Assembly: GCF_030068615.1 (NCBI RefSeq)
Contig: NZ_JASJOC010000003.1
Coordinates: 248,001-312,000, forward strand
Origin: Halostagnicola sp. A-GB9-2
GTDB lineage: Archaea > Halobacteriota > Halobacteria > Halobacteriales > Natrialbaceae
Length of the DNA stretch: 64,000 nucleotides
Direction of reading: 5' to 3'
In this document: in pieces, positions 34,854 to 35,094 of the stretch
Layout: each line of letters begins with the position of its first letter
Position numbering within the stretch: the stretch's first letter is position 1
Position numbers and translations under genes: made by a program
The notes under the pieces: model-generated
The model's input: only the letters and a program-made list of their open reading frames with translations
The model's database searches: none
What the model was told of the DNA's origin: nothing

Positions 34854-34875
34854 CGCCAAGACAGGGATTTGAACC
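34854..34875 (-). repeat. partial copy of the tRNA-Ser 3' end (direct)
   Basis: 22 bases identical except one to 35014-35035, the 3' end of tRNA-Ser (discriminator, acceptor strand and T arm), in the same orientation and 160 bases away. This is the pattern left by integration at a tRNA gene. Confidence 0.8.
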
Positions 34876-34879
34876 ACGC

Positions 34880-34929
34880 GAAGACGTTCTTACTCGTTCA
34901 CTTCGTTCACTGCGTGCGCTGCGACTTCT
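34880..34929. repeat. dispersed repeat, copy 1
   Basis: Starts GAAGACGTTC and ends GCTGCGACTTC, with short palindromic runs (CGTTCACTTCGTTCAC) between. The same two ends and similar centre occur at 51076-51116. Confidence 0.5.
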
Positions 34930-34932
34930 CTC

Positions 34933-34966
34933 ATTCAAATCCCCTCTTCGGGTTTTTGTCGAAATC
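34933..34966 (+). repeat. inverted partial copy of tRNA-Ser 3' end plus flank
   Basis: Reads ATTCAAATCCC, a diverged middle, then TTTTTGTCGAAATC. It matches, in opposite orientation, the T arm, acceptor strand and downstream flank of tRNA-Ser (35000-35035). The last 14 bases are an exact inverted copy of 35000-35013. Confidence 0.75.
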
Positions 34967-35008
34967 GTGACTCGCTCAGCTACGCTTTGCTCGTCGGTTG
35001 ATTTCGAC

Positions 35009-35013
35009 AAAAA
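35009..35013 (-). terminator. T-run terminator of tRNA-Ser
   Basis: Five T residues on the minus strand follow the tRNA discriminator base directly, an ordinary archaeal termination signal. Confidence 0.5.
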
Positions 35014-35094
35014 CGCCAGGACAGGGATTTGAACCCTGAATCCCAAAGGGAACACGCTTTCCAGGCGTGCGCCTTACCATTCGGCCATCCTGGC
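35014..35094 (-). tRNA. tRNA-Ser (anticodon GGA)
   Basis: The minus strand folds as a class II tRNA. The acceptor GCCAGGA pairs with TCCTGGC plus discriminator G. The anticodon stem CACGC/GCGTG holds the loop CTGGAAA with anticodon GGA (serine UCC/UCU codons). A long variable arm (TTCCCTTTGGGATT) and the T arm CAGGGTTCAAATCCCTG follow. CCA is not encoded. No intron is seen. Its 3' end is repeated nearby, marking an old attachment site. Confidence 0.96.

Follow-up and report, generated by a model that had tools for sequence, protein, structure and literature searches.

Many halobacterial tRNA genes are followed by non-coding hairpin repeats of a family that spans the class and that may spread by DNA-level copying between tRNA tails, with the T-loop as the address and with duplication of the host 3' end. 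We put the probability of this reading as a whole at about 0.45. The locus considered first is the tRNA-Ser(GGA) gene of Halostagnicola sp. A-GB9-2, located in the window (the whole stretch of 64,000 nucleotides that was analysed). The gene and the parts of its unit are as follows:

35014–35094, minus strand: tRNA-Ser(GGA), the host gene of the unit (ARAGORN; Rfam RF00005, 63.2 bits)
35014–35034, minus strand: a (proximal), the duplicated block from the T-loop to the tRNA 3' end (from sequence; left edge G/TTC tested)
35000–35013, minus strand: b, the 5' arm of the hairpin immediately 3' of the tRNA (exact 14-nt inverted repeat)
34953–34966, minus strand: b', the 3' arm of hairpin b (exact 14-nt inverted repeat)
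34933–34942, minus strand: a', the T-loop/T-stem 3' strand copied in inverted orientation, GGATTTGAAT (follows the local tRNA from unit to unit)
34875–34932, minus strand: m, the 58-nt middle hairpin with the apex GA..GAA..GA (relatives stand behind other tRNAs)
34854–34874, minus strand: a (distal), the direct copy of the tRNA 3' end with one mismatch in 21 (sequence comparison)

Read on the tRNA (minus) strand, the order of the unit is the tRNA tail a, hairpin b, a', hairpin m and the direct copy of a. The earlier note had described three copies of the tRNA-Ser 3' end within 240 bases, and sequence comparison confirmed their place and kind: 35014–35034 recurs at 34854–34874 with the single mismatch, and the exact 14-base inverted repeat of 35000–35013 is present at 34953–34966. 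The inverted copy placed at 34933–34966 does contain a hairpin arm and a T-loop match, but it lacks the middle of the acceptor stem; hence it consists of two pieces, b' and the T-loop match, with ten unmatched bases between them. There are no genes between the a copies, and the 139 nt that separate the tRNA end from the distal a leave too little space for an integrase. A search of the window against Rfam revealed no RNA families other than tRNA.

The source genome (4.68 Mb, 42 tRNAs found via RF00005) was compared with two Halostagnicola congeners, G001 and G002, with 43 tRNAs each. In the source genome, G001 and G002, respectively, 25/42, 17/43 and 24/43 tRNAs have their own tail directly repeated less than 320 nt downstream, and an inverted copy lies between the tRNA and the direct copy at 22, 13 and 17 of them. 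At least two direct copies within 900 nt stand behind 9/42, 8/43 and 5/43 tRNAs, counts that are inflated by neighbouring Asp tRNA genes. These copies are not due to chance: for 22 of the 42 tRNAs of the source genome, the last 19 nt recur within 900 nt downstream with at most four mismatches (11 of the 22 are mismatch-free), whereas in the control with 30 shuffles per locus the best copy had four mismatches at two loci and five to seven at the other 40. Apart from the query locus, all seven places of the source genome matched by BLAST with E ≤ 0.01 stand behind tRNAs. In the source genome and four congeners taken together, ARAGORN called a tRNA gene in 24 of the 26 BLAST-matched loci to which it was applied, Ser, Val, Leu, Gly, Ile and Asp being among the species. 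The m blocks are 20–106 nt in length and the b blocks mostly 37–76 nt, the two longest b reaching 109 and 210 nt; both are too short for genes. A further b often follows the distal a, sometimes with more units after it.

The exact pattern GGATTTGAA-N28..58-GTTCAAATCC was present in 118 of 145 Halobacteria genomes and in 51 of 58 genera, and the same pattern read backwards, used as a control, gave 0. In a sample of the phylum comprising 196 Halobacteriota genomes, 27 contained the pattern; each belongs to the 33 genomes of the window's order, and the other 163 Halobacteriota genomes yielded none. When one pattern locus per genome was considered, 28 of 30 were located 37–270 nt downstream of a tRNA on the same strand. 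In the remaining two (L143 and L148), a partial tRNA tail, CTGCAGCGCCC, precedes the unit, and it looks as if this tail had been displaced by an insertion.

The earlier note had taken the direct copies as the mark of a virus or plasmid integrated at the tRNA. This part of its interpretation does not hold for one integration, since no gene lies between the copies and the same arrangement stands behind many tRNAs. In addition, other genera have the arrangement at their tRNA-Ser(GGA) beside ilvA although the site holds no element, an outcome that the earlier note had itself named as refuting, and a single integration scar was therefore rejected. Inspection by eye of 22 named loci of tRNA-Ser(GGA) near ilvA showed the unit or clear remains of it at 11 (L032, L039, L041, L042, L047, L049, L051, L052, L053, L054 and L060, of which L042 is cut by the contig end, L052 is degraded and L054 is interrupted); the other 11 lack it, and its presence is patchy even inside Halorussus and Halolamina. 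The other part of the interpretation, that simple integration does not explain the inverted copy and that repeated insertion or foldback is needed, stands, and the interpretation as a whole is thus partly supported.

A broader version of the same idea is that the units are scars of many viruses or plasmids, integrated at tRNA 3' ends and later deleted down to their attachment arms. Integrases do leave a direct copy from the T-loop to the 3' end, and at L143 a whole unit was seemingly displaced by an insertion. Next to the displaced, unit-bearing tail of L143 there is an ORF (68–1495) whose match to Phage_integrase is weak (E 6e-4, short of the Pfam cut-off); the insertion is probably an element that had its site in the acceptor stem of a tRNA, the one ending in CTGCAGCGCCC. 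However, the unit of L143 lies beyond the displaced tail and so was there before the insertion, no element is found between the copies, and related m blocks stand behind many tRNA species. Viral carriage was not observed either: the phage collection gave no match, and the pattern scan of IMG/VR gave 27 contigs, none of which looks haloarchaeal, with the haloarchaeal hairpin motif in 0/27 (by eye) and a tRNA called in 1/27. We consider the scar explanation very improbable. Five of the IMG/VR contigs (L163, L167, L171, L173 and L178), which are high in GC, contain near-perfect palindromes of the type GGATTTGAACCGTG...CACGGTTCAAATCC, with no tRNA called in the stretch; these palindromes are also tRNA-like but differ from the haloarchaeal unit. 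Plasmids gave two matches, one behind a tRNA-Gly and the other behind a tRNA-like stretch not called by ARAGORN.

For the comparison of the parts, units with at most two mismatches in the inverted copy were collected and identical units were removed before counting, which reduced the set from the three Halostagnicola genomes from 69 to 64 and the class-wide set from 42 to 41. The latter leaves out bacterial and distant archaeal loci; it was obtained mostly via the exact T-loop pattern, and other T-loops are under-represented in it. The flank test covered direct copies with at most five mismatches and within 330 nt. Over 12 positions in the 64 units, a' agrees with its own tRNA in 520 cases, compared with 420.5 ± 9.2 when the tRNAs were swapped, and none of 5000 swaps reached 520. 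In the class-wide set of 41 units, the agreement is 330 against 300.3 ± 7.1, the largest of 3000 swaps being 329. It amounts to 0.92–0.98 at nine T-loop/T-stem positions, then drops to 0.73, 0.48 and 0.42, is near chance across the acceptor stem past the T-stem (0.23–0.28 at three positions) and rises above chance again at the end of a', where the b stem runs into the tRNA end. The duplicated block a begins abruptly at G/TTC: agreement is still slightly above chance at the base just before it (3/2000), but no longer at positions −2 to −8. On the right, the block usually extends to where the tRNA ends. The distal copies have kept the T-loop side (0.90–0.99 at positions 0–12) and lost the discriminator side (0.59 at the last position). 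The G preceding TTC is invariant in 62/64 copies, though its partner in a' is free, and the mismatches between a' and a include 15 G.T and 8 A.C. Both a and a' match the local tRNA. The b blocks after the two copies of a are alike in just 7/61 loci; simple duplication of a target that contains b is therefore not the rule.

The m block behaves differently in these comparisons, being the part that is shared across different tRNAs and does not belong to the local one. For 45 of the 60 first units, the best match of m stands at a different tRNA (30 in another genome and 15 in the same genome), and for 15 of 60 it stands at the ortholog. In the clearest cases, L210 of G002, whose tRNA is read as Ala, and L223 of G001 with tRNA-Ser(GGA) have an m in common (82/88 identical), while their tails differ; L219 of G001 and L093 of the source genome, which also belong to different tRNAs, share an m with 39/41 identical positions, their a' being unlike (GGGTTCGAAG vs AGATTTGAAC). 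The 35 nt flanking the shared m blocks agree at 18–21/35 positions against a background mean of 0.61, and the homology of m ends at the T-loop cores (GGATTTGAA ... GTTCAAATCC). Among the matches listed, there is no near-identical long m pair at two tRNAs of one genome; consequently, we infer the movement of m from cross-species pairs. A nested palindrome, GCGCGGTCGCGATGCGACCGCG followed by GAACGGCGAAGCCGTG, is seen at or near hairpin tips, in the middle of m in L210 and L223, with similar sequences in b of L218 and behind L117, so that one hairpin sits within another. Our impression is that m is modular; the regex table of clamp and inner modules over all loci is too noisy to be of use, with 95/139 loci unclassified.

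These data bear on the suggestion that each tRNA has built its own unit by local foldback and slippage, with no movement between tRNAs, and that the likeness of the m blocks is a convergent result of constraints on hairpins. The pairs b/b' and a/a' do resemble foldback copies, and an apparent deletion via AATCC microhomology at the tRNA-Ile of G002, where a unit seems to have been lost between two AATCC stretches, is of the kind expected from such events. But an identity of 93% between m blocks of 86–88 nt that follow different tRNAs in separate species is hardly convergent, and the middle of a' mismatches the acceptor stem at the three positions given above, which full foldback copying would match. 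Local foldback as the whole explanation therefore seems scarcely probable.

The units also differ between congeners. Among 28 one-to-one groups of tRNAs in the three congeners, 8 are unit-free, 7 have units in all three species and 13 in some, so that unit presence is polymorphic in 13 of the 20 occupied groups. The tRNA ending in CTGGAC is empty in the source genome, while G001 and G002 have different m blocks behind it, each between near-identical copies of the tail and b; these two loci are at the top of the list of b-likeness. Behind the tRNA ending in GGTCCCGCGCA (Leu by the anticodon tag), b and m are combined differently in the three species, as judged by eye. Comparison of these groups indicates that units were gained, lost and replaced between the congeners.

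The tRNA-Ala(CGC) and tRNA-Ala(GGC) genes of the source genome differ from those of G001 and G002 in a T-stem pair, and their distal copies and a' retain the old base. The T-stems of both genes are now CGGGG/CCCCG, both strands having changed (L084 and L085 compared with L191, L192, L197 and L198), as if they had been homogenised. Gene conversion holding the distal copies identical to the tRNA is weakened by this case, modestly, as it concerns one base per copy; the distal copies look like fossils that were not corrected to the gene. A second tail element of about 140–150 nt, starting with GCGTCTTC, occurs in the source genome (L084 from about 1685, L096 and L085). It interrupts the distal copies behind tRNA-Ala(CGC), tRNA-Ala(GGC) (partial) and tRNA-Arg(CCT) (L096) and terminates in the T-stem-like AATCCCA/AATCCCG, and a 96-nt part of it is repeated exactly 1.2 kb away.

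The apex of m follows the motif A-R-C-GNA-G-Y-GA on the tRNA strand in 33/64 units, and the reverse motif was found in 0/64; in the class-wide set, the numbers are 21/41 and 1. An apex on the tRNA strand fits RNA as well as single-stranded DNA. GNA-loop mini-hairpins of DNA are described as extraordinarily stable (PMC4686876). It is possible, if unlikely, that the unit is a functional RNA, a folded tRNA trailer in which a' would choose between the T-loop strand of the tRNA itself and the distal copy, with a role in 3' maturation, termination or regulation. The position of the units behind tRNAs in the same orientation, the strand-specific GA/GNA apex and the complementarity of a' to both a copies are all consistent with such a trailer. 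However, a fold selected as RNA should have an excess of G-U pairs on the tRNA strand, and its lack in m and b speaks against an RNA role. In the units of the three genomes, wobble pairs on the tRNA strand and on the other strand number 53/767 and 60/756 in m and 38/903 and 72/924 in b, unlike the tRNAs themselves, used as a control, with 138/1478 and 66/1397; in the class-wide set, they are 26/496 and 43/481 for m and 61/839 and 39/831 for tRNA, with the caveat that minimum-energy folding lets GA tandems disturb the comparison. In the whole a'-m-a fold, wobble pairs are slightly more frequent on the tRNA strand (99/1459 vs 73/1415), which together with the G.T mismatches between a' and a can be cited for an RNA role. 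The polymorphism of 13 of the 20 occupied groups among congeners, and the presence of different m blocks behind the same tRNA, also argue against it.

As for the enzymes that might move the units, Cas1 (PF01867) has no match in the source genome or G002, and units are present in 44/56 genomes with Cas1 and 74/89 without it. Similarly, the Y1 transposase (PF01797) is not associated with the units, which occur in 80/100 genomes with it and 38/45 without. Cas1 or Y1 as a required enzyme was set aside on these grounds, though an enzyme since lost may have acted in the distant past. A dedicated enzyme might move hairpin cassettes between tRNA tails, using the T-loop as a universal attachment site in haloarchaea, with a cut at G/TTC and with both T-loop borders remade to suit the new host tRNA; we find this doubtful. 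The bolder version, in which a recombinase acts on a folded strand, must account for the local borders. There, a'-m-a, folded as a single strand, would serve an integron-like recombinase as its double-stranded core site, with the crossover at G/TTC and the tRNA as attI. The sharp left edge at G/TTC, the invariant G before TTC with a free partner in a' and the arrays with reshuffled units agree with this mechanism. Like attC as described in the literature (PMC3053210, PMC9668308), the unit is an imperfect palindrome between an inverse core and a core, with a strand-specific hairpin in fixed-site arrays, and mismatched internal loops and a variable tip are shared as well (PMC3053210). Nevertheless, a cassette coming from another tRNA should carry its own acceptor strand and a', and here both a and a' are local, the core letters following the host tRNA. 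The RYYYAAC...GTTRRRY palindrome of attC is not present: the core is GTTCAAATCC with C at position 4, and GTTCAAA does not fit GTTRRRY. Furthermore, the units are too short for genes and contain no gene cassettes, and the main text of the archaeal integron paper contains neither 'Halobacteri' nor 'tRNA'. On balance, the integron-like mechanism has a low probability in our estimation.

Copying at the DNA level could proceed as follows. An m with its T-loop borders would be copied or recombined from one tRNA tail into another, spreading through the T-loop core because every unit and most tRNAs contain these nine bases. Copying would enter and exit at this core by strand jumping during replication or repair, possibly with help from the stable hairpins of the tRNA-sense strand. 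Such core-to-core copying would keep the host tRNA whole, duplicate its 3' end and place a' alongside, and hairpin-templated copying may make a', or correct it, to fit the copy next to it. The cell would not have to benefit, as the T-loop address would hold the repeat in a harmless place. No enzyme or moving intermediate was seen, which counts against copying at the DNA level.

Several known systems can be compared with the haloarchaeal units. At the E. coli tyrT locus (rtT), tandem repeats stand behind the tRNA gene, and each contains a copy of the tRNA 3' end. Tandem tRNA 3'-end units also occur here, at the tRNAs with at least two copies listed above, but tyrT is a single locus of one tRNA, whereas the haloarchaeal units stand at many. 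To our knowledge, the tyrT repeats include neither a hairpin shared or moving among tRNAs nor an inverted T-loop copy. REP/BIME palindromes with their RAYT (Y1) transposases are short non-coding repeats spread through the genome; the haloarchaeal units differ in having no association with Y1_Tnp. We know of no tie to tRNA tails for REP/BIME, for the hairpin elements of sponge mitochondria or for PATEs. The sponge mitochondrial repetitive hairpin elements (PMC2800124) and the PATEs of Haloquadratum (PMC3119063) are described as short non-coding repeats that bear palindromes. Casposons and CRISPR resemble the units in insertion at tRNA 3' ends or repeats and in target duplication, and the M. mazei casposon is reported to duplicate 14 bp, 4 of them belonging to the tRNA (PMC6977970); the difference is that Cas1 is absent from the source genome. 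The tRNA att sites of archaeal tyrosine recombinases resemble the units in that the 3' half of the tRNA is directly repeated (PMC8371274), but the haloarchaeal unit contains no element and has an inverted copy and a shared m. In the open-access literature searched, no description of such tRNA-tail units was found.

More than half of the tRNA genes of this genome (25/42) thus have direct copies of their own 3' ends, mostly with mobile-looking hairpins between. They offer a countable system for the gene-free spread of short palindromes across a whole archaeal class, and the units may preserve fossil copies of older tRNA 3' ends. For annotation, a direct tRNA-tail copy found in haloarchaea is not necessarily an att scar, and it may mislead the calling of integration sites.
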